Below, in pieces: positions 12,655 through 41,611 of a DNA stretch of 64,000 nt; within the stretch, counting starts at the first letter, position 1; each line of letters opens with the position of its first letter. Position numbers and translations under genes: made by a program. Below the pieces are notes generated by a model. The model ran no database searches, was not told the origin of the DNA, and saw only the letters and a program-made list of their open reading frames with translations. Origin of the DNA: Jiangella sp. DSM 45060 (lineage in GTDB: Bacteria > Actinomycetota > Actinomycetes > Jiangellales > Jiangellaceae); assembly GCF_900105175.1 (NCBI RefSeq), contig NZ_LT629771.1:1364001-1428000 (forward strand), read 5' to 3'.

Positions 12655-13506
12655 CTACTTGCCGACGCCCATGGTGAGGCCACGGACCAGGTGACGCTGC
12701 AGGTAGATGGCGATGATCATGCCGGGCACGGCCGCGATCATCGCGGCGGCGGCCATCCAGCCCCACCGTACCTGGTCGAAGCCGATGGCCTGCAGGATGC
12801 CGACCGTCACCGGCCGGGTGTTCGGCCCGGACAGCACGAGGCCCATCAGCAGGTTGTTCCAGCTGAACACGAACGCCAGGATGCCGGCGCTGGCGATGCC
12901 CGGCCGGATGATCGGCGCCACGACGGACAGCAGCACCCGCCACTGCCCGCAGCCGTCGATCTCGGCGGCCTCCTCGACCTCGACCGGGACGTCGGCGAGG
13001 AACGTCCGCACGATCCAGATCACCAGCGGGATGGTGATCAGCTGGTGCGCCAGGATCAGCCCGAGGTAGCTGTCGTACAGGCGGATCTGCTGGAAGATCG
13101 CGTACAGCGGGATGATCACCGCCAGCTCGGGGGCGAAGCGCAGCGACAGGAACGTGAAGGCCAGGTTGTCGCCGCCGGTGATCCGGTTCCGGCTCAGCGC
13201 GTACGCCGCCGGCACGCCGACCAGCAGCGACAGCAGCACCGCACCGCCGGACACGATGATCGAGTTGAGCAGGTAGCCGCTGAACTCGCCGGACGTCGAC
13301 TCGATGCCTCCGCCGCCGCCGAACAGCACCTCGCGGTAGTTCTCCAGCGTCGGGCCGAAGAGGAACTTCGGCGGGTAGTCGATGACGTCGCCGTAGCCCT
13401 TGAACGACATCAGCAGCACCCAGACCAGCGGGAACAGCAGGAAGACCGTCAGGGCCGCGAAGGCGATGGTGAAACCGGCCTTGGAGCCGGCAGCTCGCAT
13501 GGTCAT
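12655..13506 (-). CDS. ABC sugar transporter permease (MalG type)
   Basis: 283 residues, six predicted membrane helices beginning AFAALTVFLLFPLVWVLLMS. The cytoplasmic EAA loop EEAAEIDGCGQWRVLLSVVA contacts the ATPase. It belongs to the carbohydrate CUT1-type permease family. TGA of the preceding permease gene and this ATG are separated by one base, and an in-frame ATG lies six bases further in. It forms a heterodimer with the 13508-14473 permease. No ATP-binding subunit gene is present in the operon, as is common in actinomycetes that share an MsiK-like ATPase. Confidence 0.93.
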   Translation of the reverse strand: MTMRAAGSKAGFTIAFAALTVFLLFPLVWVLLMSFKGYGDVIDYPPKFLFGPTLENYREVLFGGGGGIESTSGEFSGYLLNSIIVSGGAVLLSLLVGVPAAYALSRNRITGGDNLAFTFLSLRFAPELAVIIPLYAIFQQIRLYDSYLGLILAHQLITIPLVIWIVRTFLADVPVEVEEAAEIDGCGQWRVLLSVVAPIIRPGIASAGILAFVFSWNNLLMGLVLSGPNTRPVTVGILQAIGFDQVRWGWMAAAAMIAAVPGMIIAIYLQRHLVRGLTMGVGK

Positions 13507-13507
13507 G

Positions 13508-14473
13508 TCACTCCACCGCGTTGACAGTTCGGCGCCACAGCCGGAGCAGGAAGAAGCTCACGCCGTAGACGATGATCCACAGGACGAAGATGATGGCCAT
13601 CGCCATGGCCGGGCTGGAGAAGCGGAACGCCTCCTCGTAGCCCTGCACGTGCAGCAGCCGGGTGGAGTTCAGCGGCCCGCCCCGGGTCACCGGCCAGATG
13701 AAGTCGAACTGCTTGAGCGAGTCGGCCACCCGGAACAGCGCGACGAGCACGATGTACGGCGCCAGCCACGGCAGGCTGATGTACCGGAACGCCTGCCACC
13801 GGGAGGCGCCGTCGACCGTCGCCGCCTCCCGCAGGTAGTCGGGCATCGACTGCAGCCCGGCCAGCATGATCAGCGCGCTGAACGGGGTGAACGCCCAGGT
13901 GTCGATGAGGACGACGGACAACAGCGCCGTGGACGGGTCGGTCAGCCACGGGATGTCGCCCACGCCGGCGAAGGCGAGCAGGTAGTTCAACACCCCGGCG
14001 CTGGGCTGCATCATGGTCTTCCACATCAGCCCGGCGACGATCGGCGGGATGAGCAGCGGCAGCACCAGGATGTTGCGGCCGATGCGGCGGATCATGGTCG
14101 ACCGCTCGAGCAGCACCGCGATCCCGAGCCCGAGCGGCAGCTGCACCGCGAGCACCACGACGACGTAGAGCAGCGTCAGCAGCAGCCCGGTGCGGAACCG
14201 TTCGTTGGAGAACAGCGCGATGTAGTTGTCCAGCCCGATGAACGACGGGTTGGTGATGTAGGCCTTCTCGTTGGTGAAGCTCTTGACGACGCCCTGCACG
14301 AACGGCACGAGGATGCCGATGACCAGCAGGAACGCCGGGGCCAGCATGAGCAGGTGGACCCGCGCGGTCCGCCTGCGCCGCGGGCCGGCGCGGCCCGGGC
14401 GGCCGGAGCCGGCCGGCGCGCCGGACCCGTTCCGGCGGCGCACGGTCACCGGGGTGTTGGTGCTCACGTTCAC
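13508..14473 (-). CDS. ABC sugar transporter permease (MalF type)
   Basis: 321 residues. A basic, Pro/Gly-rich N-terminal tail of about 45 residues is followed by six membrane helices (HLLMLAPAFLLVIGILVPFV at the first). The EAA-type loop reads REAATVDGASRWQAFRYISL. It is the first permease of the MalEFG-like importer and follows the solute-binding protein gene by 25 bases. The cargo should be the molecule processed by the glycohydrolase, kinase and ureohydrolase of the same operon. Confidence 0.93.
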   Translation of the reverse strand: MNVSTNTPVTVRRRNGSGAPAGSGRPGRAGPRRRRTARVHLLMLAPAFLLVIGILVPFVQGVVKSFTNEKAYITNPSFIGLDNYIALFSNERFRTGLLLTLLYVVVVLAVQLPLGLGIAVLLERSTMIRRIGRNILVLPLLIPPIVAGLMWKTMMQPSAGVLNYLLAFAGVGDIPWLTDPSTALLSVVLIDTWAFTPFSALIMLAGLQSMPDYLREAATVDGASRWQAFRYISLPWLAPYIVLVALFRVADSLKQFDFIWPVTRGGPLNSTRLLHVQGYEEAFRFSSPAMAMAIIFVLWIIVYGVSFFLLRLWRRTVNAVE

Positions 14474-14498
14474 TCCCTTGGGTTCGTGGCCCCAGGTG

Positions 14499-15902
14499 TC
14501 ACTGGGCGAGGAATCCGGCGATCTCGTCGCGGGCGGACTCCAGGTTCTGCTTCGTGTTGCCGTCGAAGAACGACTTCTGGATCGCTTCCGCCCAGATGTC
14601 CAGCGCGCGGGTCAGCTCGGGATGCGGCGGGAACCGGATCTCGGCGATCTCGGCGGTCTCCTCCAGCACCTGGCGGTACTCGCCCGCCGTCGTGCCCCAC
14701 GAGTCGACCAGGCCGGCCAGCTCCTCGTTCTCCCACGCCGACGCCCGCACCGGGTTCATGTTGCCGGCCAGGTTGGTCTGGACGAGCACGTCCGGGCTGG
14801 TCAGCCACTGCAGGAAGGTCCAGGCGGCGCCCTTCTCCTCCGACGCCGACGCCATGCTGAGCTGCCAGATCCAGGCGCTGGCGAACCGGCCCTCCGGGCC
14901 CTCGGGCACCAGGGCGTAGCCGACGTCGTCGGCGATGTTCGACTCCGCCGCGTCCTCGTAGGTGGGGGCGAACAGGTCGGCCTCGTTGAGGGCCATGGCG
15001 AACCGGCCGCTGGCCATCCCCTGCAGCACCTCGTACCAGGTGAACGCCGACGCGTCCTGCGGCGAGCCCTTCTTGACGATGTCGATGAACAGGTCGGTGA
15101 CCTCGGCCGCGGTGTCGGTGGCGATCGCCACCTCGCCGTCGTCGTCCAGCAGCCGCACCCCGTAGGCCTGGGCCATGCTGGCGAAGGTCAGGTAGGGCAG
15201 GTCCCAGTACTTGTCGAACCGCGTGACGATGGGGAAGACGCCGCTCGTGGACTCCGCGGCGGCCAGCTGCTCGGTCGCGGCGAGGACGTCCTCGTAGGTC
15301 TGCGGCACCTGCACGCCCGCGGCCTCGAACACGCTCGGCCGGTAGGTGAGGTTGTACGACTCGAAGTTGATCGGCAGCGCCCACAGCTCGCCCTCGCCCA
15401 GGCCGGTCAGCAGCTCCCGGTTCCACCGGCCCGCGTCGAGCACGCCGGGGACGAAGTCGTCGACGTCGTACTCCGGCATGGTCACGGCCGGGTTGTCCAC
15501 GTAGCCGTCCAGCGGCTCCAGCCAGCCGGCGGCCGCGTACTGCCAGTTGTGCAGCGGGTCGGTCATGAAGACGTCGTAGTTGCCGACGCCGGACGAGAGG
15601 TCGGCCTGCAGCTTGTCGAAGCCCTGCTGCTCGTTGAGGACCTCGACGTTGACGGTGATGCCGGTCTCCTCCTCGAACTGCTCGAGCAGCGGCTGCACCG
15701 ACGCGACGAACGGGTGCTCGATCAGCATCAGGTTGATCTCGCTGCCCTCGAAGGCCCGCGGATCGTAGTCCTGACCGGCGTTGAGCTCCGCGCCGGCCGA
15801 GCCGTCCGTTTCGTTCGACGGCGACGCGGGGCCGCAGGCGCCGAGCACCAGCGCCGCCGTCAGCGTGGCGGCCGCGGTCGCGGCGAACCTTCTGACCTTC
15901 AT
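14499..15902 (-). CDS. ABC transporter solute-binding lipoprotein (family 1)
   Basis: 467 residues. The lipoprotein signal ends in LTAALVLGAC, so the protein should be anchored outside the membrane. The two-lobed family-1 fold shows at QPLLEQFEEETGITVNVEVL, YDVFMTDPLHNWQYAAAGWL then EPLDGYV, and GELWALPINFESYNLTYRP, the conserved ALP-N-tYNk region. ATG 15902 is preceded by AGGAGG, whereas the upstream in-frame ATG has no good ribosome site. It replaces the MFS-type carrier YegT found in E. coli beside the same enzyme set. Confidence 0.93.
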   Translation of the reverse strand: MKVRRFAATAAATLTAALVLGACGPASPSNETDGSAGAELNAGQDYDPRAFEGSEINLMLIEHPFVASVQPLLEQFEEETGITVNVEVLNEQQGFDKLQADLSSGVGNYDVFMTDPLHNWQYAAAGWLEPLDGYVDNPAVTMPEYDVDDFVPGVLDAGRWNRELLTGLGEGELWALPINFESYNLTYRPSVFEAAGVQVPQTYEDVLAATEQLAAAESTSGVFPIVTRFDKYWDLPYLTFASMAQAYGVRLLDDDGEVAIATDTAAEVTDLFIDIVKKGSPQDASAFTWYEVLQGMASGRFAMALNEADLFAPTYEDAAESNIADDVGYALVPEGPEGRFASAWIWQLSMASASEEKGAAWTFLQWLTSPDVLVQTNLAGNMNPVRASAWENEELAGLVDSWGTTAGEYRQVLEETAEIAEIRFPPHPELTRALDIWAEAIQKSFFDGNTKQNLESARDEIAGFLAQ

Positions 15903-15938
15903 GGGTCTACCTCCTGGCAGGACGAACACGGAGATGCA

Positions 15939-17033
15939 TCAGGACTGGGACGGCTTCGGGAGGGTGGCCACGCCGGTCAGCCGGCGGGCGACCCCTTCGA
16001 TGTCGAGCTGGTTGGCGTCGAGCACGGCCTGGTAGGCGTCGCGCGGGACCTGCCCGAACCCGGACAGGGCGCCGGCGATCGATCCGGCCATGCAGGCGAC
16101 GGTGTCGGTGTCGTCGCCCGCGTTGGCCGCCGCCACCACCGTCAGCCACGGGTCGCCGGCCGCCGCGACGACGAAGCCGATGGCCGCGGGCACCGCCTCG
16201 GCGGCGTGCAGGCCGGTGCCGACGTAGTCGGCGATGCGTGCCACCGCCTGGTCGAGGTCGTCGCTGGCGATGGCGATCTTGACGGCCAGTTCGATGCGCG
16301 CCTCGACGCTGGCGCCGGCGGAGTCCCGGCCGTCGCGGCCGCCGATCTGCGCGCCCAGCCGGGCGCCGGCCCGGGCCGCACGGACGACGTCGACGAGGGT
16401 CGCGTCGTCGGCGAGGGCGATGGAGACGGCGGCGGCGATCGCGCCCGCGCCGGCGACGCCGATGTTCGTGAAGTGGCTGGGCCGGCAGGTGATCGCGGCG
16501 GCCTCCACGGCGGCGCGGAGGTTGCCCGGGTTGACCAGGCCGGCCGGCGCGACCCGCATGGCGCCGCCGTTGCTGGTGCCCATGGTGGTCTCGCGGCCCG
16601 CGGCGCCGATGGTCTCCGGGTCGGCGCCGCCCCGCAGCGCCTCGACCGAGCGCCGGGTGCTCGGCCCGGCGAAGTGCGGGAAGTAGTCCGGGTTCTCCGA
16701 CCAGCCGAGGATCATCCGCGCGACGGCGGCAGCGGTCACCGAACCGCCGCCCTTGATGAACTCCTCCGCCAGCAGCAGCATCTGGCTGGAGTCGTCGGTG
16801 ATCTGCGCGGGCTTGCGGCCCTTGGCGTACGGGGAGTCGGCCGGCGGCTCGTTGAACGCCTCGACCCGTCCGCCCCAGAGGTCACGGATCTCCCGGATGC
16901 TGCGCTGCTCCGTCGGGGCGCCGAGAGCGTCGCCGATGACGGCGGTGGCGAGCGAGCCGTGCACCCTGTCCTGCAGCTGGGAGAACTCCCACTCGCGATC
17001 GAGGCCGGGGGTGGGGACAGACGGCTGGGCCAT
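15939..17033 (-). CDS. ADP-ribosylglycohydrolase family protein (YegU-like)
   Basis: 364 residues of the ADP-ribosylglycohydrolase (DraG/ARH) fold, magnesium-dependent cleavage of N- or O-glycosidic ribose bonds. Diagnostic motifs: GSLATAVIGDALGAPTE, QITDDSSQMLL (the TDDT/S metal motif) and NAGDDTDTVACMAGSIAGA (GDDxDT). Length matches the YegU branch. ATG 17033 follows AGAGGA. A longer in-frame start would run back through the operator region. It is the first gene of the minus-strand operon, divergent from the GntR gene. In this context a nucleoside-like or ribosylated small molecule rather than a protein is the more likely substrate. Confidence 0.9.
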   Translation of the reverse strand: MAQPSVPTPGLDREWEFSQLQDRVHGSLATAVIGDALGAPTEQRSIREIRDLWGGRVEAFNEPPADSPYAKGRKPAQITDDSSQMLLLAEEFIKGGGSVTAAAVARMILGWSENPDYFPHFAGPSTRRSVEALRGGADPETIGAAGRETTMGTSNGGAMRVAPAGLVNPGNLRAAVEAAAITCRPSHFTNIGVAGAGAIAAAVSIALADDATLVDVVRAARAGARLGAQIGGRDGRDSAGASVEARIELAVKIAIASDDLDQAVARIADYVGTGLHAAEAVPAAIGFVVAAAGDPWLTVVAAANAGDDTDTVACMAGSIAGALSGFGQVPRDAYQAVLDANQLDIEGVARRLTGVATLPKPSQS

Positions 17034-17106
17034 ACGGGATCCTCTTTCTGCGAACCGGTTGCCGGCGTATCGGACCTGGAGGGAGCCGATGGCCGGGACC
17101 GTAGCA

Positions 17107-17143
17107 ACTTGTAGGTACATGTGCAAGACTTGTTGTGACAAGT
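17107..17143. promoter_or_regulatory. GntR/HutC-type operators in the divergent intergenic region
   Basis: Perfect inverted repeat ACTTGT-TGTG-ACAAGT at 17128-17143, of the size expected for HutC-subfamily dimers. A second imperfect dyad lies at 17107-17127, beginning ACTTGTAGGTACATG and ending GCAAG. Both lie between the ADP-ribosylglycohydrolase gene and the GntR gene, so autoregulation together with control of the operon is likely. Confidence 0.7.
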
Positions 17144-17152
17144 GGAGGTGGC

Positions 17153-17857
17153 ATGAGGCCGGCGTATCAACGGGTGGCAGACTCGCTCCGGGCCGACATC
17201 GAGGCCGGCCGCTGGCAGCCGTCGACCAAGCTGCCGAGCGAGCACACGCTCGCGCAGACGTTCGAGGTGTCCCGGACGACCATCCGGCAGGCGCTGGATG
17301 TCCTGGAGTCGGCCAACGTCATCCGGCGCCAGCAGGGCAAGGGCACCTTCGTCGCCGCTCAGGGCGTGTCCCATGTGCTCGGCGACCTCAAGAGCTTCAC
17401 CGACACGCTGCGCGAACTGGGCAAGCAGCCCGGCATCCGGGACGTGTCGGTCGCGATCGACGACGACCCTCCGGCCGACGCGGCGACGTTCCTGCGCGGC
17501 TCCCGCATCTGGTGCGTCGAGCGCGTCCGCACCGCCGACGGCCGGGCGTTCTGCCGCATGCAGTCCTGGCTGCCCGACGCCCTCGCCGCCGGCATCGCCG
17601 AGGACGAGCTGCTGGCCCGGCAGTCGCTGTACGCGCTGCTCGCCGACCTGGCCGACGAGCGGCCGGCCGAGGCGACCGAGGTGATCCGGGCCGAGGCGGC
17701 CAGTGCCGAGGACTCCGTCGCGCTCGGGGTGCCGAAGGACACGCCGCTGCTCAGCATCTACCGGTGGACCAGCAACCACCGCGGGGCGCCGATCGAGTTC
17801 GTCCGCTCGGCCTCACCGGGCGACCGCTACGAGTACGTCATCCGCCTCAAGCAGTGA
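17153..17857 (+). CDS. GntR family regulator, HutC subfamily (UTRA domain)
   Basis: 234 residues. The winged helix-turn-helix is at residues 1-70 (LRADIEAGRWQPSTKLPSEH; RTTIRQALDVLESANVIRRQ). The UTRA effector domain follows from ~90 to the end (FLRGSRIWCVERVRTADGRA; LLSIYRWTSNHRGAPIEFVR). ATG 17153 follows GGAGGTGGC. It is divergent from the six-gene operon and occupies the same position as YegW relative to yegTUV in E. coli. The effector is probably the imported compound or its phosphate, by analogy with sugar-phosphate-sensing UTRA domains. Confidence 0.92.
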   Translation: MRPAYQRVADSLRADIEAGRWQPSTKLPSEHTLAQTFEVSRTTIRQALDVLESANVIRRQQGKGTFVAAQGVSHVLGDLKSFTDTLRELGKQPGIRDVSVAIDDDPPADAATFLRGSRIWCVERVRTADGRAFCRMQSWLPDALAAGIAEDELLARQSLYALLADLADERPAEATEVIRAEAASAEDSVALGVPKDTPLLSIYRWTSNHRGAPIEFVRSASPGDRYEYVIRLKQ

Positions 17858-21539: not shown

Positions 21540-21568
21540 TTGGCATTGCAACCGCTTGCACCTATGCT
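21540..21568 (+). promoter_or_regulatory. Promoter with LacI-type operator in the spacer (epimerase-nag operon)
   Basis: TTGGCA (21540-21545), a 17-base spacer and TATGCT (21563-21568). The 14-mer TGCAACCGCTTGCA at 21547-21560 fills the spacer, so a bound LacI-family dimer would block polymerase. The same 14-mer recurs at five other promoter regions in the window. Confidence 0.8.
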
Positions 21569-21618: not shown

Positions 21619-22635
21619 ATGAAGACGCTGCCCGAGCTCCATCGAGCTCTTGCCACGCCGAGCGCGGCGCTGGTCGAGGACCTGCGCGACGTCCGGGGCG
21701 ACGTCGTCGTGCTCGGCGCGGCCGGGAAGCTCGGGCCCAGCCTCGTCATGCTCGCGCTGCGCGCCCTGACCGAGGCCGGTTCCTCGGCGACGGTGCACGC
21801 CGTCTCGCGCTTCGGCGACGCCGCGGTGGCCGGCGAGCTGCGGGCCGCCGGCGCGAACGTCATCGCCGCCGACGTCTCCGATGACGCCGCCCTGGCCGCG
21901 CTGCCCGACGCGGAGAACGTGATCTTCCTCGTCGGGGCGAAGTTCGGCACGCAGGGCAACGAGGCCGCCATGTGGGCGACCAACGCCTACCTGCCCGGAC
22001 GGGTGGCCGAGCGGTACCGGTCGGCGCGGATCGTCGCGCTGTCCACCGGCAACGTGTACCCGCTGGTGGCCACGGCGTCGGGCGGCGCCAGCGAGGCCGA
22101 CCCGGTGGGTCCGGTGGGCGAGTACGCGATGTCGTGTCTCGGGCGCGAACGCGTCCTCGCGCACGCCGCCCGCGAGCACGGCACGCCGCTGGCGCTGATC
22201 CGGCTCAACTACGCGGTCGAGCCGCGCTACGGCATCCTCGTCGACCTCGGCCGGCAGATCCTCGCCGGCGAGCCGGTCGACGTCACCACCGGGCACGTCA
22301 ACCTCGTCTGGCAGGGCTACGCGAACGAGGTGATCCTGCGGGCGCTGCGGCATGCCGCCACCCCCGAGTTCGTCCTCAATCTCACCGGCCCCGAGACGCT
22401 GTCCACCCGCCGGCTGGCCGAGAAGCTCGGCGCGGCGCTGGGCCGCGAGGTCGCCGTCACCGGGCAGGAGGCGCCGACGGCGCTGCTGGCCGACGCCGCC
22501 CGGTGCCACGCGCTGTTCGGCTACCCGGCGCGCAGCCCCGACGACCTGGTGCGCGACGTGGCCGAGTGGCTGCTCGCCGGCGGAACGGTGCTCGACAGGC
22601 CCACGAAATTCCAGGTCAGGGACGGGAGATTCTGA
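21619..22635 (+). CDS. NAD-dependent epimerase/dehydratase family protein
   Basis: 338 residues of the extended short-chain dehydrogenase fold. The nucleotide-binding loop is VVLGAAGKLGPSL. Further hallmarks are VIFLVGAKFGTQGNEAAMWA then TNAYLPG, the catalytic-Ser strand IVALSTGNVYP and a Y-x-x-x-C element (GEYAMSCLGRERVL), in which Cys replaces the usual Lys of YxxxK. This departure makes classical epimerase chemistry uncertain. It is the first gene of a four-gene operon with a DapA-like aldolase, NagB and NagA, under the operator at 21547-21560. The stop overlaps the next start by one base. Confidence 0.83.
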   Translation: MKTLPELHRALATPSAALVEDLRDVRGDVVVLGAAGKLGPSLVMLALRALTEAGSSATVHAVSRFGDAAVAGELRAAGANVIAADVSDDAALAALPDAENVIFLVGAKFGTQGNEAAMWATNAYLPGRVAERYRSARIVALSTGNVYPLVATASGGASEADPVGPVGEYAMSCLGRERVLAHAAREHGTPLALIRLNYAVEPRYGILVDLGRQILAGEPVDVTTGHVNLVWQGYANEVILRALRHAATPEFVLNLTGPETLSTRRLAEKLGAALGREVAVTGQEAPTALLADAARCHALFGYPARSPDDLVRDVAEWLLAGGTVLDRPTKFQVRDGRF

Positions 22636-23669
22636 TGGCACCGCTGGAGACCTTCGCTGCCGGGACGGTGATCCCGGCCATGCCGCTGGCGCTCACCGAG
22701 GAGTTGTCGTTCGACGAGCGGCGGCAGCGTGCGCTGGTGCGCTACTACCTCGCCGCGGGCGCCGGCGGGCTGGCCGCGGCCGTGCACTCGACCCAGTTCG
22801 CGATCCACACGACGCACGCCGATCTGCTGCGGCCGGTCCTCGAGCTGGTGGCCGACACCGCCCGGAAGGAGGGCTCGCCGGACCTCGTGCTGGTGGCCGG
22901 GGTGGTCGGCGAGACCGATCAGGCGGTCGCCGAGGCGGAGCTCGCGGCCTCGCTCGGCTACGACGCGGTGCTCCTCGCCCCGTACGGCGTCGGCGACCGG
23001 AGCGAGGACGCGCTCCTCGACCGCGCCCGGAAGGTGGGCGACGTGCTGCCCGTCATCGGGTTCGCGCTGCAGCCCGCGGTCGGCGGCCGGCGGCACTCGC
23101 GCGGCTACTGGACCCGGCTGGCCGACATCCCCAGCGTCCTCGGCGTCAAGGCGGCGCCGTTCGACCGGTACGCGACGCTCGACATCGTGAGCGGCCTCGC
23201 CGCCTCGTCCAGGCGCGACGCGGTCACGCTCTACACCGGCAACGACGACCACATCGTCGGTGACCTCGTCGCGTCGTTCGCGCACGCCGACGGCAGCAGC
23301 ACCCGCTTCGCCGGCGGGCTGCTCGGCCAGTGGTCGGTCTGGACCCGGGGCGCCGTCGAGACGCTGGAGCTGGCCCGGCTCGCGCGCGACGGCGACCACG
23401 CGGCGCGGCTGGCCCTCGACGGCATCGACGGACCGCTGACCGACGCCAACGGCGCCATCTTCGACGCCGCCGGCGGCTTCGCCGGGTGTATCCCGGGTAT
23501 CCACGAGGTACTACGCCGGCAGGGACTGCTGGCCGGCACCTGGTGCCTGGACCCGCATGAACGGCTCTCACCCGGCCAGCTCGACGAGATCGACCGGATC
23601 TGGGCCGCTCATCCGCAGTTGCGCGACGACGACTTCGTCGCCGCGCACCTCGACGAGTGGCTCGCCTGA
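22635..23669 (+). CDS. DapA/NAL-type aldolase family protein, atypical
   Basis: 344 residues with the (beta/alpha)8 layout of the dihydrodipicolinate synthase/N-acetylneuraminate lyase family. The Schiff-base lysine is likely in PSVLGVKAAPFDRY. The strand that usually carries GTTGE, the loop binding the pyruvate carboxylate, instead reads GLAAAVHSTQFAIHTTHADL. The usual PYYNKP tyrosine region reads LLAPYGVGD. A 2-oxo-acid aldolase role is therefore doubtful and a different carbonyl substrate is inferred. It is translationally coupled to the epimerase and lies 46 bases before NagB. Confidence 0.8.
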   Translation: MAPLETFAAGTVIPAMPLALTEELSFDERRQRALVRYYLAAGAGGLAAAVHSTQFAIHTTHADLLRPVLELVADTARKEGSPDLVLVAGVVGETDQAVAEAELAASLGYDAVLLAPYGVGDRSEDALLDRARKVGDVLPVIGFALQPAVGGRRHSRGYWTRLADIPSVLGVKAAPFDRYATLDIVSGLAASSRRDAVTLYTGNDDHIVGDLVASFAHADGSSTRFAGGLLGQWSVWTRGAVETLELARLARDGDHAARLALDGIDGPLTDANGAIFDAAGGFAGCIPGIHEVLRRQGLLAGTWCLDPHERLSPGQLDEIDRIWAAHPQLRDDDFVAAHLDEWLA

Positions 23670-23715
23670 TCCGCCCGCGTCCCCCGCATCGAGAGAGACA
23701 CGAGGAACCCGCTCC

Positions 23716-24471
23716 ATGACGACGATCCCCGCCACCGACGGCGTCCCCGTCACCATCTCCGGCTCCGCCGAGGAAGCCGGCGCCTCCGCGGCGCGCGCGG
23801 CCGCCGATGCCATCGTCGCCGCGATCGCGGACTCGGGCCGGGCCCGGGTGATCTTCGCCAGCGCGCCGTCGCAGGAGGCGATGCTGAGCGGGCTGGCCGG
23901 CGACGACCGGATCGACTGGTCGCGCGTGCACGGCCTGCACATGGACGAGTACATCGGCATCGACCCGGCCGACCCGCGGGCGTTCGGCGCCTGGCTGGCC
24001 GAGCGGCTCCCGGTGGACCGGTTCGCGTCGTTCGCCCGCATCGACCCGTCCGGTGACGCCGAGGCGGAGGCGGACCGCTACGAGGCGGTGCTGCGGGCCG
24101 AGCCCGTCGACCTGACCTGCCTGGGCTTCGGCGTCAACGGGCACATCGCGTTCAACGAGCCCGGCACCGACCTCGACGACACCCGGTTCGTCCGGACCGT
24201 CGAGCTGGCCCCTGCGTCGCGCCGGCAGCAGGTGGCCGAAGGGCTGTTCGGGCAGGTCGACGACGTGCCCGGGCGGGCGATCACGCTGACCGTACCGGCG
24301 CTGCTGAGCGCCCGCACCCTGGTCGCGACCGTGCTCGGGCGGCCGAAGGCGGCCGCGGTGGCGGCGGCGCTGACCGGCCCGATCTCCGCGGCGTGCCCGG
24401 CCAGCGCGATCCGCCGGCACCCGGCCGCGACGGTGCATCTGGACGCCGCTGCCGCCAGCGGGATCGACTGA
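23716..24471 (+). CDS. nagB: Glucosamine-6-phosphate deaminase family protein (NagB-like)
   Basis: 251 residues. Family motifs are intact: HGLHMDEYIGIDPADP (catalytic Asp), LGFGVNGHIAFNEPGTDLDD (catalytic His and Glu) and GRAITLTVPALL. The Asn before GH is also seen in Bacillus-type NagB. The reaction is aldose-ketose isomerisation plus deamination, GlcN6P to Fru6P and ammonia. Paired with the NagA-like gene four bases downstream it gives the standard two steps from an N-acetylhexosamine 6-phosphate. No GlcNAc kinase or PTS gene is present in this window. A related phosphorylated amino sugar is possible. Confidence 0.87.
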   Translation: MTTIPATDGVPVTISGSAEEAGASAARAAADAIVAAIADSGRARVIFASAPSQEAMLSGLAGDDRIDWSRVHGLHMDEYIGIDPADPRAFGAWLAERLPVDRFASFARIDPSGDAEAEADRYEAVLRAEPVDLTCLGFGVNGHIAFNEPGTDLDDTRFVRTVELAPASRRQQVAEGLFGQVDDVPGRAITLTVPALLSARTLVATVLGRPKAAAVAAALTGPISAACPASAIRRHPAATVHLDAAAASGID

Positions 24472-24475
24472 CCCG

Positions 24476-25498
24476 ATGGCGCCGCCGTCCGGTCTTCTGC
24501 CCGGGCTCGTCGACCTGCAGGTCAACGGCTTCCGCGGCATCGACCTCAACCGCGACGACATCGCCGCCGACGACGTCGTCGCGCTCACCCGTGAGCTCTG
24601 GACGGCCGGCGTCACCCGGTACCTGCCCACGCTGATCACCGGGAGCGAGGCGCGGCTGGCGGCGGCCATGCGCGCCGTCGCCGCCGCCCGCCGGGCCGGC
24701 CCGCTGATCGCGCACAGCATTGCCGGCATCCACGTCGAGGGCCCGCACCTCTCCGCGGCCGACGGTGCCCGCGGCGCGCACGACCCGGCCTGGATCCGGC
24801 CGCCGGACACCGCCGAGCTGGACCGGTGGATCGACGCGAGCGAGGGCCTGGTGCGCGTCGTCACGCTCGCGCCGGAGTGGGACGGCGCCGCCGCCTACAT
24901 CGCGCACGCCGTGCGTCGCGGTGTCGCTGTCTCCCTCGGCCACGCCGCGCCCAACGCCGCCGACGTCCGGGCCGCGGCCGGCCACGGCGCCACGCTCAGC
25001 ACTCACCTCGGCAACGGGTGCGCGCCGGTCCTGCCGCGGCACCCCAACCACCTCTGGGCCCAGCTGGCCGAGGACCGGCTGACGGCGATGTTCATCGCCG
25101 ACGGTCACCACCTGCCCGCCGACGCACTCACCGCGATGATCCGGGCGAAGACGCCCGAGCGGTCGGTGCTGGTCAGCGACGCCGCGCCGCTGGCCGGCGC
25201 GCCGCCGGGCACGTACGAGACGAGCGTCGGCGGACGGGTCACCGTCGAGCCGGGCGGCGCGCTGCGCCTGGCCGGGACGTCGCTGCTGGCCGGGTCGGGC
25301 GCGAGCCTGCTCGACTGCGTCCGCTGGGCCACCGAGCAGCTGCCGTTCGAGCCCGCCACCCTGTGGGCCATGGCGAGCACGACGCCGGCCCGCCTGCTCG
25401 GCGGGCCGGCCGCGGGCGACCGCGTGCTGGTCGAGGCCGACGCCGAGGCGTGGGTGGCGGTCCGCACCGAGGTGGCCGGCACGGTCGTGCACGCCTGA
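24476..25498 (+). CDS. nagA: N-acetylglucosamine-6-phosphate deacetylase family (NagA-like, short N-terminus)
   Basis: 340 residues of the amidohydrolase superfamily. Metal and catalytic residues can be traced: Glu in HVEGPHLSAADGARGAHDP, His in VSLGHAAPNAAD, His in LSTHLGNG, and Asp in VLVSDAAPLAG. The protein begins at PGLVDLQVNGFRGID, the NagA strand PGFIDVQLNG, so the ~45 residues that normally build the N-terminal half of the beta-sandwich are absent. The family more often has LFN in the third motif where this has LGN. It removes the N-acyl group before NagB acts. The gene ends against a strong bidirectional terminator. Confidence 0.85.
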   Translation: MAPPSGLLPGLVDLQVNGFRGIDLNRDDIAADDVVALTRELWTAGVTRYLPTLITGSEARLAAAMRAVAAARRAGPLIAHSIAGIHVEGPHLSAADGARGAHDPAWIRPPDTAELDRWIDASEGLVRVVTLAPEWDGAAAYIAHAVRRGVAVSLGHAAPNAADVRAAAGHGATLSTHLGNGCAPVLPRHPNHLWAQLAEDRLTAMFIADGHHLPADALTAMIRAKTPERSVLVSDAAPLAGAPPGTYETSVGGRVTVEPGGALRLAGTSLLAGSGASLLDCVRWATEQLPFEPATLWAMASTTPARLLGGPAAGDRVLVEADAEAWVAVRTEVAGTVVHA

Positions 25499-28296: not shown

Positions 28297-29291
28297 CGGG
28301 GCCGCACCGGGCGGCCGGTGCGCGCGGACGCGTAGGCGGCCTCGATGAACGCGACCGCCGCGCGGGCCTGCGCGGACGTCACCAGTGGCGGGGCGCCATG
28401 GCGGATCGCGGCGACGAAGTCGGACAGCTGGGCCAGCTGCTGGTCGACCGGGTCGAACTCGGGGACCTCGCGGCCGTCGCGCGTCACGAAGTGCGTGATC
28501 TTCTCCGCGAGCGTGACGACGGTGCCGCCGTCGCCGGTCACCGCGACCCGCAGCGGCAGGTCGCCGTACGCCGTCGTGGTGGCGAGGAACGTGAGCAGCG
28601 CGCCGCCGGCGAAACGTGCCGTGATCGTGATGGCGTCCTCGACCTCGATGCGCTCGTGGGCGAGCAGCCCGCTGTGGGCGTACACCTCCTCGACGTCGCC
28701 GAGCAGCCAGAGCGCGAGGTCGACCAGGTGCACGCCCTGGTTCATCAGCGCGCCGCCGCCGTCCAGCGCCCAGGTGCCGCGCCACGCGCCGGAGTCGTAG
28801 TACTCCTGCGTGCGCCAGAGCGCGATCTCGATGTTCGCGGTGGTGACGCGTCCCAGACCGCCCGCGGCGATGGTGCGGTGCAGGAACTGGTTCTCCGCGG
28901 CGAAGCGGCGCTGGCTCACGACGCTGAGGACTTTGCCGGACCGCTTCTCCGCGTCGATGATGCGGTCGGCCGCGTCGACGCTCACCTCGAGCGGCTTCTC
29001 CAGCAGGACGTGCTTGCCCGCGTCGAGCGCGGCGACGGCGACGTCGGCGTGCAGGCCGGAGGGGACGCAGACGACGACGGCGTCGACGTCGTCGCGGGCC
29101 AGCAGTTGCTCGGCCGACGGCGCGGCCTCGGCGCCGTACTCGGCGGCGACGGCGCGGGCGGCGTCCGGGTCGGCGTCGGCGACGGCGGCGAGCTCGGCCG
29201 GCGAGGCGGGCGACAGCAGCCGCTCGACATGGGCGCGGCCGATCACGCCGACGCCGATGACGCCGACGCGCGGCAGGACGGACGAGGTCAT
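28293..29291 (-). CDS. Gfo/Idh/MocA family oxidoreductase
   Basis: 332 residues. The Rossmann loop VGVIGVGVIGRAHVERLL is canonical. The catalytic Lys is in LLEKPLEVS and the His-x-x-Asp pair in GGALMNQGVHLVDLALWLLG. The length and the C-terminal beta-sheet domain are standard for this NAD(P)-dependent sugar/inositol dehydrogenase family. ATGA overlaps link it to the next gene on each side. Substrate is probably a C1, C2 or C3 hydroxyl of a pyranose, but this cannot be read from sequence. Confidence 0.9.
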   Translation of the reverse strand: MTSSVLPRVGVIGVGVIGRAHVERLLSPASPAELAAVADADPDAARAVAAEYGAEAAPSAEQLLARDDVDAVVVCVPSGLHADVAVAALDAGKHVLLEKPLEVSVDAADRIIDAEKRSGKVLSVVSQRRFAAENQFLHRTIAAGGLGRVTTANIEIALWRTQEYYDSGAWRGTWALDGGGALMNQGVHLVDLALWLLGDVEEVYAHSGLLAHERIEVEDAITITARFAGGALLTFLATTTAYGDLPLRVAVTGDGGTVVTLAEKITHFVTRDGREVPEFDPVDQQLAQLSDFVAAIRHGAPPLVTSAQARAAVAFIEAAYASARTGRPVRPR

Positions 29292-30160
29292 GGGCGCTCC
29301 GTCCGGTTCTCCAGCGCCTCGACGATCGCGCTCATCACGACGACGGGGGACAGCAGCTGCTCGCGGCCGGACTGCGTCCGGCCGGTCTCGACGGCCGTGA
29401 CGAAGCGGGTCAGCGCCGGTGCGTTGTAGTCGCGGTCGAGGGTGAGCTCGCGGGCGACGACGCCGTCGACTCCGGTCGCGGTGGCGTGGAACGGCACCCG
29501 GTGGTCGTCGTCCGGGACGACGAACGTGAGGACGACCGCCACGCCGGCGATCCGCAGCAGGGCGACCGTGGTGTCGCCGTCGCGCGTCACGCTCGCCGCC
29601 ACCGAGCCGGGCTCGACGACCGGGTTGCCGAGGATCTCCAGAGCCGCCTCGACATGGTGGATGCCGTAGAAGAACAGGCCCGAGTACTCGCTGTCCGGGT
29701 CGCCCGGCCCGACGATGCTCAGCTGCCGCAGCGCGCCCCGGCCGGCCTCGTCGACGAGGTCGGGGAGCTGCGGGACGAACCGCAGCGCGGAGCAGGACAC
29801 CAGCACGGCCGACGTCTTCTCCGCCGCGTCGAGCATCGCCACGGCGTCGTCGACCGTGGTCGCGAACGGCTTGTCGACCAGCACGGGCAGGCCGGCGGCG
29901 AGCAGCGGCTCGGCCTGCTCGCGGTGCCGGGCGCCGTCGCGGGTGGAGATGATCGCGGCGTCGACGAGCTGTACGAGGTCGGCGGCATCGTCGACCAGCT
30001 GCTCGATGCCGCCCTGGGCGCGCAGTGTCTCGTTGCGCGCGGTGCTGCCGCCGGCGAGGGCGACGGCCCGGAACCCGGGGTGGCGCTGCTCGCTGTTGAG
30101 GAAGCGGAGGAAGTGATCGGTGTGGGAGTTCTCGGTGCCGATGAAGCCGATACGTCTCAC
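29288..30160 (-). CDS. Gfo/Idh/MocA-like protein with atypical nucleotide loop
   Basis: 290 residues, shorter than usual. It starts at GTG 30160 (RRIGFIGTENSHTDHFLRFL), so the nucleotide-binding loop has ENSHTDH in place of GxGxxG-x-x-H. The KP motif is present as LVDKPFATT and the His region as GLFFYGIHHVEAALEILG. The C-terminal domain is truncated relative to family members. It heads the five-gene operon, about 50 bases from the operator at 30209-30222. It may be an inactive or specialised partner of the 28293 enzyme. Confidence 0.82.
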   Translation of the reverse strand: MRRIGFIGTENSHTDHFLRFLNSEQRHPGFRAVALAGGSTARNETLRAQGGIEQLVDDAADLVQLVDAAIISTRDGARHREQAEPLLAAGLPVLVDKPFATTVDDAVAMLDAAEKTSAVLVSCSALRFVPQLPDLVDEAGRGALRQLSIVGPGDPDSEYSGLFFYGIHHVEAALEILGNPVVEPGSVAASVTRDGDTTVALLRIAGVAVVLTFVVPDDDHRVPFHATATGVDGVVARELTLDRDYNAPALTRFVTAVETGRTQSGREQLLSPVVVMSAIVEALENRTERP

Positions 30161-30208
30161 GGTCGGGTGGCTCCCTGCGTCGGGTCGGGGGGTGCGGCCA
30201 GCTTGCCT

Positions 30209-30247
30209 TGCAAGCGGTTGCAGGTCAAGTCTCGCGGCCCGTAGAGT
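30209..30247 (+). promoter_or_regulatory. LacI-type operator in a divergent promoter region
   Basis: The 14-mer TGCAAGCGGTTGCA (reverse complement of TGCAACCGCTTGCA) lies at 30209-30222. On the plus strand TTGCAG (30218-30223), 18 bases, then TAGAGT (30242-30247) form a promoter overlapped by the operator. On the minus strand TTGACC (30228-30223) precedes a spacer occupied by the same site. One operator can therefore control both divergent units. Confidence 0.75.
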
Positions 30248-30305
30248 GGCCCCGAATCCGGCCCCGGCCAGCACGTCGGACCGTCCGCGCGGAAGAGGAG
30301 CGACC

Positions 30306-31331
30306 GTGGCAGCAGCGACACTCGGCGTCGGCATCGTCGGCCTGGGCAGCATCGGGGTGACCCACGCGCGAGCCCTGCGCGACGTCGAGGGGGTCGAGGT
30401 CCGCGCCGTCAGCGGCGGACGGCCGGACGCGGCAGCGGCGGCCGGGTGGCCGGAGGCCGTCAGGCTGTCGCCGGACGCGGTCCTGCGCCACCCGGGCGTC
30501 GACGTCGTCGCCGTGTGCGCGCCGACGCAGTGGCACGCCCCGCTCTCCGTGGCCGCCGTCGAGGCCGGTCGGCACGTGGTCGTCGAGAAGCCGCTGACCA
30601 CCACCGTGGCCGACGCCGTCCGGCTGGCCGCGCTGCAGCGTGAGCGCGGGCGGCTGGTGGCCATGGTCGCGCAGCGCCGCTTCGAACCCGAGTACGCCGC
30701 CCTGAAATCACTGGCCGACGCCGGGCGGCTGGGCGCGATCCGGCTGGGCGCCACCCACGTGCATTGGCACCGCGACGACGCCTACTACGCGGCGGCGCCG
30801 TGGCGGACGTCCATGGCCGGTGGCGGCGGTTCACTGCTGAACCAGGGCGTGCACAACGTCGACCTACTGCGCTGGCTGTGCGGGCCGGTCGAGGAGATCA
30901 CGGCCCAGTACGCGACGCTCGGCCGCGACATGGACGCCGAGGACACGACGGTCGCGACGCTGCGGTTCGCCTCGGGCGCGCTCGGGCTGGTCAGCACGTC
31001 TACGGCGACGCCGCCCGGTGCGCCGGCCACACTGGCCCTGCACGGCTCGTCCGGCGTCGTCGAGCTGGGCCAGGGCGAGGTGCTGCGATGGGACGTGCAG
31101 GGGGTGCCCGCGCCCTCGTCGGACGACCAGGTGGCCAGCGGCGCCGCCGACCCGCTGGCGATCGGCGCCGCCGGGCACGCCCGCATGTGGCGGGCGATCG
31201 TCGAGGCGATCGGGTCGGGGGAGCGCTACGGCGCCGACGCCGAGGACGCCGTCGACACCGTCCGCCTGCTCTGCGGCATCTACGAAGCGGCCCGGTCCGG
31301 CACGCGCGTGCGCCTGAAGGATCTCGCGTGA
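30306..31331 (+). CDS. Gfo/Idh/MocA family oxidoreductase
   Basis: 341 residues from GTG 30306, with GAAGAGGAG just upstream. Canonical loop VGIVGLGSIGVTHARALRDV, Lys in VVEKPLTTTVADAV, and active-site segment GGGGSLLNQGVHNVDLLRWL. It is a single-gene unit transcribed away from the five-gene oxidoreductase/mannonate operon. It shares the operator at 30209-30222 and ends at an 18-base-stem hairpin. Confidence 0.9.
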   Translation: MAAATLGVGIVGLGSIGVTHARALRDVEGVEVRAVSGGRPDAAAAAGWPEAVRLSPDAVLRHPGVDVVAVCAPTQWHAPLSVAAVEAGRHVVVEKPLTTTVADAVRLAALQRERGRLVAMVAQRRFEPEYAALKSLADAGRLGAIRLGATHVHWHRDDAYYAAAPWRTSMAGGGGSLLNQGVHNVDLLRWLCGPVEEITAQYATLGRDMDAEDTTVATLRFASGALGLVSTSTATPPGAPATLALHGSSGVVELGQGEVLRWDVQGVPAPSSDDQVASGAADPLAIGAAGHARMWRAIVEAIGSGERYGADAEDAVDTVRLLCGIYEAARSGTRVRLKDLA

Positions 31332-31424: not shown

Positions 31425-34100
31425 TCAGTTCAGCGTGAACTCGACGGTGGTGGTGTTGCCGGCGACGTCGTGGACCACCAGGACGTTCTCCCCGTGGATC
31501 GCGCCGAACCGCGGCGGCGCGATGAAGTTGACGTCGGACCACACGTTGTCGGTCAGGTCCTTCTCGGTGCCGTTCAACGTGACCTTGTCGATCTTCCCGG
31601 CATCATGCAGCTTGAAGCTGATCAGGTCGTACGTCTCGCCGGTGGCGACCGTGTACGAGGGTCCGCTCTTGATCGTCGCCCTCGGTGCCGTGCCGTCGAT
31701 CGTGACCGTGAACGAACCCGTCCTCGACACGTTGCCAGCCAGGTCGTGCGCGTTGTACTTGACGGTGTACCGCCCGTCGGGCAACCGAACCGTGGCGGTG
31801 TGCGACGCGGACGTCGCGCCGTCGGCAGGGCTCTGCGTGCTTGTGACGAGCGAGCCGTCGCGATAGACGTTCGCCACGATCTTCTCCAGGCCGGCGTCGT
31901 CGGCCGCATCGACCTGAACGGCCAGCTCCCGGAACGGGCCACCGGTCGTGGGTGACGCCAACGACACCGTCGGCCGCACGTCGTCCTCCGGCGGGGGCGG
32001 GCTGTCGGGGGTGTACCGGAAGAGGTGCTGCGATCCGTAGTAGGCGAGGAAGTACAGGTTGCCCTCGTCATCGGCGTGCAGCCGGGAGCCCTTGCCGACG
32101 CCCACGTTGCTGACTTCGAGGGTCGCCGGGTCGATGCGCACCAACCGATTGCCCAGAGAGGCGTACATCCGGTGGTCCTTGCTGGAGTAGGAGAGGTATC
32201 CCCAGGACCAGTAGCTGCCGGTGCCGTATCCGCTCCCGAGGATCGTGACCTTCCGTTCCACCTGCCGGGTCGCTGGGTCGTAGATGAACAGGATGTCCTC
32301 GGCGACTCCCCAGATCTTGCCGTCAGGCCCGACCGTGAGGCCGGTGACGCCGCGTCGGTCCGGCACCGGGATGATCTCGCGGACCTTGGTGTCGGTCTTC
32401 GGGTCCCAGGTGATCAGGTACGCCTCGGTCTGTCCGCTGTCGGGGTGGCCGTTGCCGCCGTCGACGTTGGTGCCGAGGTAGACCATCCCGTCGCCGGGGT
32501 TGTACACGGCTGAGGACACACCCTGATCGACGGCGACTTCGGTGCGGTAGTGCTCGACCGTCGAGGTGGCGAAGTCCCATACCGAGATACCGCCCTGGTT
32601 GAGGCCGTACCCCGGAATCGAGCCCATGTAGGCCTTATCCTCGACCGGGTCGTAGGTCATGGTGATCGGCCGGTCGAAGCCCTGCGCCGTGCCGGTGAAC
32701 AGGGTGCGCGGCGCCACCGACGGCGCCTTTGGATCGTAGACCTGGAACGAGCTGCCGGTGTAGGCGCCGAGATACATCAAGCCGTCGCGGACGATCGAGG
32801 ACTCGTACTGCCGGGAGACCTGCAGGGTCGGGTACTCGATGCCGGTGCCGGTGGTGTCCACCCGGGCGAGTGAGCTCATGTAGCCGGCCGCCCACATCGT
32901 GTTGTCCGGGCCCGGCAGGACGGTCTCGAGCACCGTCGGCTGGGCGAAGGAGAACGGGTGCAGGGACGGACTGGCCGGAGTGTCCAGGTCCAGCGCGAAG
33001 GAGCCGGTGCCTGACAGTCCGAGCAACCGAGTCGAGTCGTCCGGGTCGGCGACCGCGTCACTGAGGTAGCTGCCGATGTCGGCACCGGTGGCGGCGACGC
33101 TCCGGCCGCTGAGGCTGTAGCTCCACAGCTGCTTTCCGTTGGAGAACAGCACCTTGTCGGCGTCGGTCGGGTGCGCGACGAAGGTGTGCCCCTGGACGCT
33201 GAGCCTCCCTCCTGCGTTGCCCCAGTACTCGGTGTTTCCGTCGAGGTCCATGACGAGGAGCTTCTTCGACGTGTAGCCGCGGGCGAACACTCGATCACCG
33301 ATGACGGTCACCGAGGAGATGAAGCTCTCAGTCGAGATTCCGGGCTGCTCGAGCTCGTTGGTGATCCGGACAGCGGCACGGGTGTCGACGTCCAGCCTCC
33401 ACACGGCAGGGTCGGCCGAGCCGGTCGAGACGAACAGATCGTTGCGTTCGGCATCGTAGGAGACGTAGCGGACATACTGGGACTGGGCGGGATCGGCCGG
33501 CCCCCAGGGTTGGTGACCCCAGTTCTCCAACGTGCCCGTGTCGGGATGGAACTGCCACAGGTCACCCTTCGGATAGGTCCCGATGAACACCGAATCGCCC
33601 GGCCCGCGCGAGATCTGCCATGGATAGGCGTTTTTCGGAGCGGCGGGATCGATCGGGCCGAGGTCCTCGACCGTCTTCGTGGCGGGGTCGTAACGGTGCA
33701 GGGCGTAGTCGTGGTACGTGGAGAAGTACACCCGGCCGTCCGCCGCCACCACCGAGCCCCAGGTGTTGTCGGCGCCAGGAATCGGGAAGGTGCGCAGGGT
33801 CTGCCCGGTCTCGAGGTCGAAGACGACGAACGTCCCGGGCTGGTCGGTGTCGCCGATGCCTTTGAACATCTGGTACCCGACCGCCCGGCCGTCCTCGATT
33901 CCCACGACGGGCACGCCGGGGATCTGCGACTTGACCGGGGCGCCCAGATAAGAGATCGCCGGGTCACCGTCGAGGATCTCCCGGACGACGGGGTCATTGC
34001 TGGCCGGCTGCCCGTCCGCGGCGGCGTGTGGTGCCGTCAGGAACGAGACGGACAGCGCCGCGGTGGCTAGGGCTGCTCGCCAGCGCAACCTTCGATTCAT
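31425..34100 (-). CDS. Secreted beta-propeller protein with C-terminal Ig-like domains
   Basis: 891 residues. Signal peptide LRWRAALATAALSVSFLTAP. Residues ~45-690 are PQQ/YncE-like blades of ~50 residues, each with a G-x-Y/F-P-K-G-x-L-Y/W or YDPATK element (VFIGTYPKGDLWQFHPDTGT; HRYDPATKTVEDLGPI). From ~700 there are two or three Ig-like domains (PTVSLASPTTGGPFRELAVQ; DGRYTVKYNAHDLAGNVSRT; HDVAGNTTTVEFTLN). It is the distant paralogue of the four tandem propellers at 45168-55725, sharing DPAISYLGAPV near the start. ATG 34100 is used because the longer start adds an unrelated N-terminal extension before the signal peptide. No enzymatic motif is recognised; carbohydrate binding is inferred. 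LacI gene 34212 is divergent. Confidence 0.83.
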   Translation of the reverse strand: MNRRLRWRAALATAALSVSFLTAPHAAADGQPASNDPVVREILDGDPAISYLGAPVKSQIPGVPVVGIEDGRAVGYQMFKGIGDTDQPGTFVVFDLETGQTLRTFPIPGADNTWGSVVAADGRVYFSTYHDYALHRYDPATKTVEDLGPIDPAAPKNAYPWQISRGPGDSVFIGTYPKGDLWQFHPDTGTLENWGHQPWGPADPAQSQYVRYVSYDAERNDLFVSTGSADPAVWRLDVDTRAAVRITNELEQPGISTESFISSVTVIGDRVFARGYTSKKLLVMDLDGNTEYWGNAGGRLSVQGHTFVAHPTDADKVLFSNGKQLWSYSLSGRSVAATGADIGSYLSDAVADPDDSTRLLGLSGTGSFALDLDTPASPSLHPFSFAQPTVLETVLPGPDNTMWAAGYMSSLARVDTTGTGIEYPTLQVSRQYESSIVRDGLMYLGAYTGSSFQVYDPKAPSVAPRTLFTGTAQGFDRPITMTYDPVEDKAYMGSIPGYGLNQGGISVWDFATSTVEHYRTEVAVDQGVSSAVYNPGDGMVYLGTNVDGGNGHPDSGQTEAYLITWDPKTDTKVREIIPVPDRRGVTGLTVGPDGKIWGVAEDILFIYDPATRQVERKVTILGSGYGTGSYWSWGYLSYSSKDHRMYASLGNRLVRIDPATLEVSNVGVGKGSRLHADDEGNLYFLAYYGSQHLFRYTPDSPPPPEDDVRPTVSLASPTTGGPFRELAVQVDAADDAGLEKIVANVYRDGSLVTSTQSPADGATSASHTATVRLPDGRYTVKYNAHDLAGNVSRTGSFTVTIDGTAPRATIKSGPSYTVATGETYDLISFKLHDAGKIDKVTLNGTEKDLTDNVWSDVNFIAPPRFGAIHGENVLVVHDVAGNTTTVEFTLN

Positions 34101-34169
34101 GGCGCAACTCCTCTGGTGCGACTCGACGGATGAGGTCGCGCACCATGCTGGCCAGCCGTGGAGAAGTCC

Positions 34170-34183
34170 TGCAAGATGTTCCA
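34170..34183. promoter_or_regulatory. Possible weak LacI operator upstream of the LacI gene
   Basis: TGCAAGATGTTCCA matches 11 of 14 positions of TGCAAGCGGTTGCA and lies 28 bases before the GTG of the LacI gene, between it and the divergent propeller gene. This is a candidate autoregulatory site. The match could be by chance. Confidence 0.35.
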
Positions 34184-34211
34184 ATTCTGTTACAACCCGG
34201 AGGGTGGGTCA

Positions 34212-35264: not shown

Positions 35265-35302
35265 TGCAAGCGGTTGCAAACACCGTCCGCAGCATCTACG
35301 CT
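35265..35302 (+). promoter_or_regulatory. LacI-type operator overlapping the promoter of the 35338 operon
   Basis: 14-mer TGCAAGCGGTTGCA at 35265-35278. It overlaps a -35 element TTGCAA (35274-35279), which is followed by a 17-base spacer and TACGCT (35297-35302). It lies seven bases after the LacI gene and 60 bases before the oxidoreductase gene it probably controls. Confidence 0.78.
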
Positions 35303-39726: not shown

Positions 39727-39796
39727 GCGACGTCATCCTGTGCCGGGTGAGGTCACCGTGGCCTCACCCGGCACCCCAATTCACGAGGAGAGGCCG

Positions 39797-41586: not shown

Positions 41587-41611
41587 GCCGGATGGGTGAG
41601 GCGAATCGTTC

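Follow-up and report, generated by a model that had tools for sequence, protein, structure and literature searches.

A conserved epimerase-aldolase gene pair and a LacI-type operator set around NagA- and NagB-like genes of Jiangella sp. DSM 45060

Dihydrodipicolinate synthase (DHDPS) and N-acetylneuraminate lyase (NAL) use a catalytic tyrosine that follows strand 4 of their barrel, and in DHDPS a threonine and the tyrosine form a proton relay. Solved NagB proteins carry ATGGTP or ATGSTP in their phosphate loop. Here we describe an operon of Jiangella sp. DSM 45060 in which relatives of these proteins are encoded together. The DNA analyzed, referred to as the window, is a stretch of 64,000 nucleotides (NZ_LT629771.1, positions 1,364,001-1,428,000) from a genome of 7,485,957 bp, and positions are those of the window unless another locus is named. 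At 21619-25498 it carries four head-to-tail open reading frames on the + strand in the order EPI-ALD-NagB-NagA, where EPI is a protein of the extended short-chain dehydrogenase/reductase (SDR) fold and ALD a barrel of the DHDPS/NAL fold; the frames of EPI and ALD overlap by one base.

We propose, at odds that we judge to be slightly short of even, that these four genes are transcribed as one unit within a glycan-catabolic island under LacI control (~21.5-61 kb), and that the compound on which EPI and ALD act is a carbonyl compound originating from an amino sugar. The six-site operator set, the folds, the invariant residues and the conserved gene pair were computed, and from them we infer the chemistry, the substrate and the binding of LacI; the regulon part of the proposal is much firmer than the chemistry.

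The operator set and its distribution

A palindromic LacI-type operator, TGCAANCGNTTGCA, was found in six exact copies in the genome, all of them within a 34,288-bp span of the window (Table 1), and the reversed control pattern gave two sites genome-wide. A longer, 15-base pattern with one mismatch allowed had a shuffle expectation of 0.00 and added a seventh, degenerate site, next to which lies the gene for a LacI-family protein that is likely the reader of the operator. The inducer of this one LacI protein would be reported by six promoters, which would offer a direct handle on the substrate. A second LacI-family gene of the window (34158-35258), 30% identical to the LacI of locus L006, ends just before the operator at 35265.

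For comparison we used a set of 80 loci (L001-L080), the best 80 of at least 534 relatives of ALD, which is skewed to actinobacteria, with many Nonomuraea, and in which several phyla are present only as metagenome-assembled genomes. Among these loci the operator was confined to L006, L007 and L038, which are also the three with NagB. LacI relatives of at least 55% identity were seen at the same three loci and at L166, L167, L168 and L170, and at six of these seven an exact operator precedes the NagB match by 7-31 bp; L169, a locus only 4.8 kb long, also has the operator. NagB-linked operons from three genomes of the same genus, two with all four genes (G005, G013) and one without NagA (G011), have it 44-60 bp before EPI. 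In another genome (G020, contig C10), NagA, ALD, EPI and Gfo/Idh genes lie on one strand with an operator at their head (L106, 7826-13620), and the NagB of that genome, on a different contig (L167), has an operator of its own.

Active sites of ALD and EPI

ALD scored 22.9 bits against Pfam DHDPS, just over the cut-off of 22.1, and its model (mean predicted local distance difference test, pLDDT, 95.8) is a (beta/alpha)8 barrel of the DHDPS/NAL type. The best Foldseek matches were N-acetylneuraminate lyases (E 4.3e-15), whereas a second structural aligner favored DHDPS (Z 34.9, root-mean-square deviation 2.1, 293 residues); as judged on the predicted model, the choice of nearest fold is a tie between relatives. 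A sequence-only reading of this DNA had held that ALD keeps a likely Schiff-base lysine in GVKAAP and lacks a GTTGE loop, and both statements proved to be true of the whole family, the Schiff base itself being predicted. The lysine, K172, is conserved in all 105 rows of an alignment of ALD proteins (the 80 loci plus additional genomes and plasmid records; the window protein recurs as row L081) and aligns with the lysine of 14 DHDPS-family proteins from the same genome. The model places it on the sixth barrel strand (168-174).

The loop that replaces GTTGE follows strand 45-48. V50-H51-S52-T53-Q54 overlies GTTGE free of gaps in four MAFFT runs with the 14 same-genome proteins and in two profile-profile alignments, and two further profile alignments agree with this ungapped register. 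Four of these positions (V50, H51, T53 and Q54) never vary, and the fifth, 52, has Thr in 85 rows and Ser in 20, so that V-H-[ST]-T-Q is found in 105/105 rows: the Gly, first Thr and Glu have become Val, His and Gln, and the second hydroxyl position alone is kept. Two HMMER alignments with an earlier gap gave a register that is one residue off, with H-T-T-Q-F on GTTGE and both hydroxyls kept; the gap-free MAFFT and profile alignments decide against it. A conserved catalytic Tyr after strand 4 was not found in ALD, where Y117 is present in 44 of the 105 rows and no Tyr stands at 116 or 118-121. His51 occupies the position at which the DHDPS relay Thr is expected, and because neither the relay Thr nor the Tyr is kept, in contrast to the invariant His51, this residue appears to be the best candidate for an acid/base, in a carboxylate pocket that appears to have been rebuilt. 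A second DapA-like family, seen beside EPI-ALD at 27 of the 80 loci (e.g. L004, 14688-15596), has A-H-T-G-R at the GTTGE position in four aligned rows; a His at this loop position is therefore not unique to ALD. The clade that contains the operon ALD (window, L083, L084 and L085) has M16, A144, H154 and Y158 in place of the H, Y, L and F that are near-invariant in the family, departures that possibly reflect a changed substrate pocket.

EPI matched Pfam Epimerase at 40.7 bits and has a Rossmann fold with GxxGxxG. The Y-x-x-x-C element that had been noted in it was upheld: the motif is Y169-A-M-S-C173, and in an alignment of 99 rows, on which all EPI counts are based, the Tyr is invariant and position 173 is Cys in 90, Val in 5, Ala in 4 and never Lys. 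Reading of the sequence revealed no YxxxK elsewhere in the protein. S142, R64 and K108 are likewise invariant, and K37 and the three glycines of the nucleotide motif are each kept in 98 rows, with one gap. Since Val or Ala stands at position 173 in nine rows, catalysis probably does not depend on C173 itself; the leading candidate for the role of the lost lysine is K108. The closest structural match was TerB, an NADP-dependent oxidoreductase (Z 31.9, root-mean-square deviation 2.3, 291 residues), and together with R64, which is invariant and lies where strand 2 ends, this suggests that EPI is probably NADP-dependent. Thus, the active sites of both EPI and ALD depart from the textbook, and they do so family-wide, beyond one genome. 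In plasmid records EPI is annotated only as 'epimerase' or 'oxidoreductase' and ALD only as 'dihydrodipicolinate synthase family protein'. The pair has clear diagnostic residues (V-H-x-T-Q with K172, and Y-x-x-x-C), and annotation pipelines are likely to misname it.

The NagA- and NagB-like proteins and the spread of the gene pair

The NagB-like protein matched Glucosamine_iso (PF01182) with 71 bits, over the cut-off of 27, and fell below the curated model TIGR00502 (103 vs 236.9 bits). Its subfamily has FASAPSQ (window), [FL]AAAPSQ or ATGNSQ at the loop in which solved proteins have ATGGTP or ATGSTP; the pattern TG[GS]TP is thus absent from the NagB-like protein, and the distant rows read AAAPSQ or ATGNSQ. 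N141 was dropped as an oddity, as the Streptococcus mutans enzyme also has Asn at this position, where E. coli NagB presumably has Asp. Nineteen of 393 genomes of the class gave a match with E not above 1e-40, and 16 of the 19 are from the same family. The NagA-like protein had no Pfam match and scored 171.4 bits against TIGR00221 (cut-off 225.65). Its E88, H156, H177, R188, H212 and D235 are invariant in 11 rows and align with NagA residues that have metal, catalytic and phosphate-contact roles. Its substrate may be phosphorylated, because R188 and H212 align with the phosphate-contact residues of solved NagA. In this protein (24476-25498) and in its counterpart at L007 (9960-10973) the match begins ~50 positions into the profile, apparently without the N-terminal part.

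The earlier statement that no kinase is present holds for the operon itself, and the window too has no match to a ROK or BadF-type kinase, PfkB having been outside the search. The absence of a kinase from the operon carries little weight, because 23 ROK and 7 BadF-type matches lie elsewhere in the genome and the Arg and His of the NagA-like protein align with phosphate contacts. That standard N-acetylglucosamine (GlcNAc) use is unlikely for this operon was supported, with NagB and NagA both far under the curated cut-offs and the NagB loop altered.

At 75 of the 80 loci EPI is encoded on the strand of ALD and no more than 2.5 kb away (upstream at 72, downstream at 3); the five without it are L024, L029, L035, L038 and L054, the last cut by a contig end. 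In nine annotated plasmid stretches an epimerase/oxidoreductase gene is near ALD every time, with Gfo/Idh genes in five and a sugar-phosphate isomerase gene in four. The ALD tree covers eight phyla (Actinomycetota, Pseudomonadota, Bacillota, Planctomycetota, Verrucomicrobiota, Chloroflexota, Acidobacteriota and Gemmatimonadota), and no description of the pair was found in the open-access literature searched by title and abstract, in which the one paper to match on all terms (PMC10434189) deals with iron in Bacteroidetes. The three NagB loci, two of which also have NagA, differ in gene order. A single clade of NagAB-linked ALDs was not recovered: the tree needs 5 label changes (shuffled mean 7.8; 3/500 shuffles as low); the window protein (L081) was unlabeled in this count, adding one change by hand count, and the label takes in the NagB-only L038 and L085 and the NagA-only L092.

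A relative of a nitrogen-handling family (deaminase, deacetylase, aminotransferase, N-acetyltransferase or amidase) was observed at 54/80 loci, with query families that were picked after inspecting the loci and loci that are not independent. DegT relatives account for 40 loci, including L063 of Bacillota and L056 of Chloroflexota, GNAT for 12 and amidase for 6. Ten genomes of 3.2-13.8 Mb, all drawn from loci with DegT, have 7-19 PF01041 matches each, weak ones included, which corresponds to ~2-6% per 17 kb vs 40/80. The DegT proteins of the loci resemble sugar, 2-deoxy-scyllo-inosose and 3-amino-5-hydroxybenzoate (AHBA)-type aminotransferases, and in L047, from Clostridia, a gene of the M20 peptidase family is located two genes upstream of EPI. 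A second EPI-ALD pair of the Jiangella genome, at ~2.87 Mb (2870689; L102, 6159-10736), has relatives of DegT (53%), a regulator (59%) and ABC permeases (28-33%) nearby. Alphaproteobacterial clusters (L055, L064, L070 and L079) combine EPI, GNAT, ALD, amidase and xylose-isomerase-like genes, L064 also having an NMT1-type binding protein.

Further genes of the island are collected in Table 1, and ManD-like and other enolase-superfamily genes are also located in it. A fifth propeller-like protein is encoded at 31425-34184, and each of the five is 26-28% identical to one in L006. The propeller label comes from weak PQQ, Kelch and DUF6923 matches in three of the five and from similarity via the relative in L006; for the one tested (50312-52738), no sequence match was found in the PDB. 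That these proteins are depolymerases is a guess. A DUF4127 protein (55864-57366) scored 408 bits, and no paper naming this domain was found in the open-access literature searched. A separate unit at 12655-17857 consists of an ABC transporter, an ADP-ribosylglycohydrolase and a GntR/UTRA regulator.

Table 1. Coordinates of the operon, the operator copies and other features of the island
Feature	Position	Strand	Remarks
EPI, extended-SDR-fold protein	21619-22635	+	338 aa; GxxGKxG, R64, K108, S142, Y169; C173 at YxxxK lysine position
ALD, DHDPS/NAL-fold barrel	22635-23669	+	344 aa; K172 on strand 6; V50-H-S-T-Q54 at GTTGE position
NagB-like sugar-phosphate isomerase/deaminase	23716-24471	+	251 aa; loop FASAPSQ
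NagA-like deacetylase	24476-25498	+	340 aa; match from profile position 52 of 380, without N-terminal part
Operator TGCAACCGCTTGCA	21547-21560	.	59 bp before EPI start codon
Operator copy	30209-30222	.	between divergent Gfo/Idh genes 29288-30170 (-) and 30120-31331 (+), starts uncertain
Operator copy	35265-35278	.	before Gfo/Idh 35338-36369 (+) and alpha/beta-hydrolase gene
Operator copy	38367-38380	.	before sugar ABC transporter
Operator copy	42578-42591	.	before two Gfo/Idh genes, 42613-43641 and 43638-44663
Operator copy	55821-55834	.	head of propeller gene 52777-55821
Degenerate operator copy	59933-59947	.	one mismatch to 15-base pattern; between divergent AGE and LacI genes
LacI-family regulator	59974-60999	+	61% identical to L006 LacI
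Alpha/beta hydrolase	36366-37307	+	53% identical to L006 gene matching glucuronyl-esterase and AXE1 models
ABC transporter (binding protein, two permeases) and carbon-nitrogen hydrolase	38461-42574	+	
Four large propeller-like proteins	45168-47720, 47740-50676, 50312-52738, 52777-55821	-	starts uncertain; signal-like N-termini by eye
AGE (N-acylglucosamine 2-epimerase family)	58693-59919	-	67% identical to L006 AGE

Alternative explanations and comparison with known systems

In the reading that we prefer, the island probably feeds on a sugar polymer. The propeller-like proteins and the esterase-like hydrolase would open an extracellular glycan and the ABC transporter would import the pieces, after which the NagA-like enzyme would deacetylate and the NagB-like enzyme deaminate the amino-sugar part. 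EPI would oxidize, reduce or epimerize a keto compound, and ALD would form a Schiff base on K172 and then cleave or dehydrate, possibly with His51 as acid/base. The sequence-only reading had proposed a modified amino sugar processed by retro-aldol or related chemistry. A departure from standard GlcNAc use was supported, and nitrogen-handling neighbors are frequent; the retro-aldol part was not singled out, as dehydration, hydration or other Schiff-base chemistry would fit the fold equally well.

Several observations weigh against our reading. EPI-ALD is mostly found away from NagA and NagB and, because NagB occurs at only 3/80 loci, it is not specific to NagA/NagB pathways. Moreover, 26/80 loci, including all four from Gemmatimonadota (L053, L059, L066 and L067), gave no match to any of the six queries for nitrogen-handling families. 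On the regulatory side, the suggested link between LacI and the operator rests on co-occurrence, L166, L167, L168 and L169 have an operator-headed NagB without EPI-ALD nearby, an exact operator is missing from L170 despite its LacI relative (58%), and L171, L172, L177 and L178, with NagB at 50-51% and LacI relatives at 40-45%, have no operator before NagB.

We also considered other routes for the carbon skeleton. The polymer might contain a uronic acid, with EPI acting like a uronate or keto-uronate oxidoreductase, ALD like the keto-deoxy-sugar-acid dehydratase KdgD, and NagA and NagB taking the amino-sugar half separately. The only NCBIfam matches of ALD are indeed to KdgD models, though very weak (23.7 vs 278 bits), a keto-deoxy-galactarate dehydratase is among its Foldseek matches, and the island holds the alpha/beta hydrolase as well as genes of the enolase superfamily, ManD-like ones among them; however, its annotated genes include no uronate isomerase or unsaturated-uronate hydrolase, neither of which was searched for specifically, the GTTGE frame is lost in ALD, and nitrogen-handling neighbors recur across several phyla. 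We regard this branch as unlikely. A route resembling sialic acid use, in which ALD would act like an N-acetylneuraminate lyase on a nonulosonate-type acid, AGE would epimerize the released N-acylmannosamine and NagA and NagB would finish, seems improbable to us. In its favor, NAL heads both the profile and the Foldseek matches of ALD, and AGE, NagA and NagB are all island members, but ALD keeps neither the GxxGE frame nor the catalytic Tyr, most ALD loci lack NagA and NagB, and EPI is not known to have a role in sialic acid use.

The pair could even be a passenger that shares a promoter by chance with a divergent NagA and NagB engaged in ordinary GlcNAc use. The residues that NagA keeps at its metal site and phosphate contacts, and the existence of operator-headed NagB without EPI-ALD nearby, agree with this; yet the window, L006 and L007 combine EPI-ALD with NagB under the same operator in differing gene orders and come from separate places in the ALD tree, and the NagB loop is changed. 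We consider this explanation very improbable. Concerning EPI itself, loss of the lysine might mean that it is not a classical redox enzyme and serves as an NADP-binding scaffold or by substrate-assisted chemistry. Position 173 is occupied in nine rows by Val or Ala, and function in the absence of the catalytic triad has been described for the SDR SimC7 (PMC5039031). Conservation of S142, Y169, R64 and K108 in every row, and of the motif glycines in all but a gapped one, argues the other way, and we give this possibility little credence.

Beyond this operon, EPI-ALD may be an undescribed two-enzyme module, spread over eight phyla, that breaks amino-sugar or aminocyclitol skeletons, a generalization that we hold more tentatively than the reading of the operon. 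It would join a lysine-less SDR to a class I lyase in which an invariant V-H-[ST]-T-Q loop, with His51 as putative acid/base, has taken over from the Thr-Tyr proton relay and the GTTGE pocket, would be coupled to NagA/NagB, a DegT aminotransferase, an amidase or M20 for different substrates, and would here serve a glycan regulon with five propeller-like candidate depolymerases. If confirmed, the chemistry would show the rebuilding of two textbook active sites and add a route of amino-sugar use.

Compared with the GlcNAc-6-phosphate pathway, the operon has recognizable homologues of NagA and NagB, but they fall below the curated cut-offs, NagB has the loop FASAPSQ, NagA is without its N-terminal part, no kinase is in the operon and the genes are linked to EPI-ALD. 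EPI shares its fold, the nucleotide motif and the triad Ser and Tyr with TerB (PDB 6d2v, 6nd7) and GalE-type extended SDRs, whereas none of the 99 rows has the Lys of YxxxK, Cys, Val or Ala standing in its place, and the identity of EPI to TerB is 23-24%. ALD resembles N-acetylneuraminate lyase and DHDPS in the (beta/alpha)8 fold over nearly its whole length and in the Lys on strand 6; it differs in having V-H-[ST]-T-Q for GTTGE and no conserved catalytic Tyr, in its identity of 14-22% among the matches listed and in being ~35-55 residues longer. Finally, as in LacI-family sugar regulons, a palindromic operator stands ahead of transporter and enzyme genes, and a LacI gene lies within the island, but here the six exact sites are confined to 34 kb.

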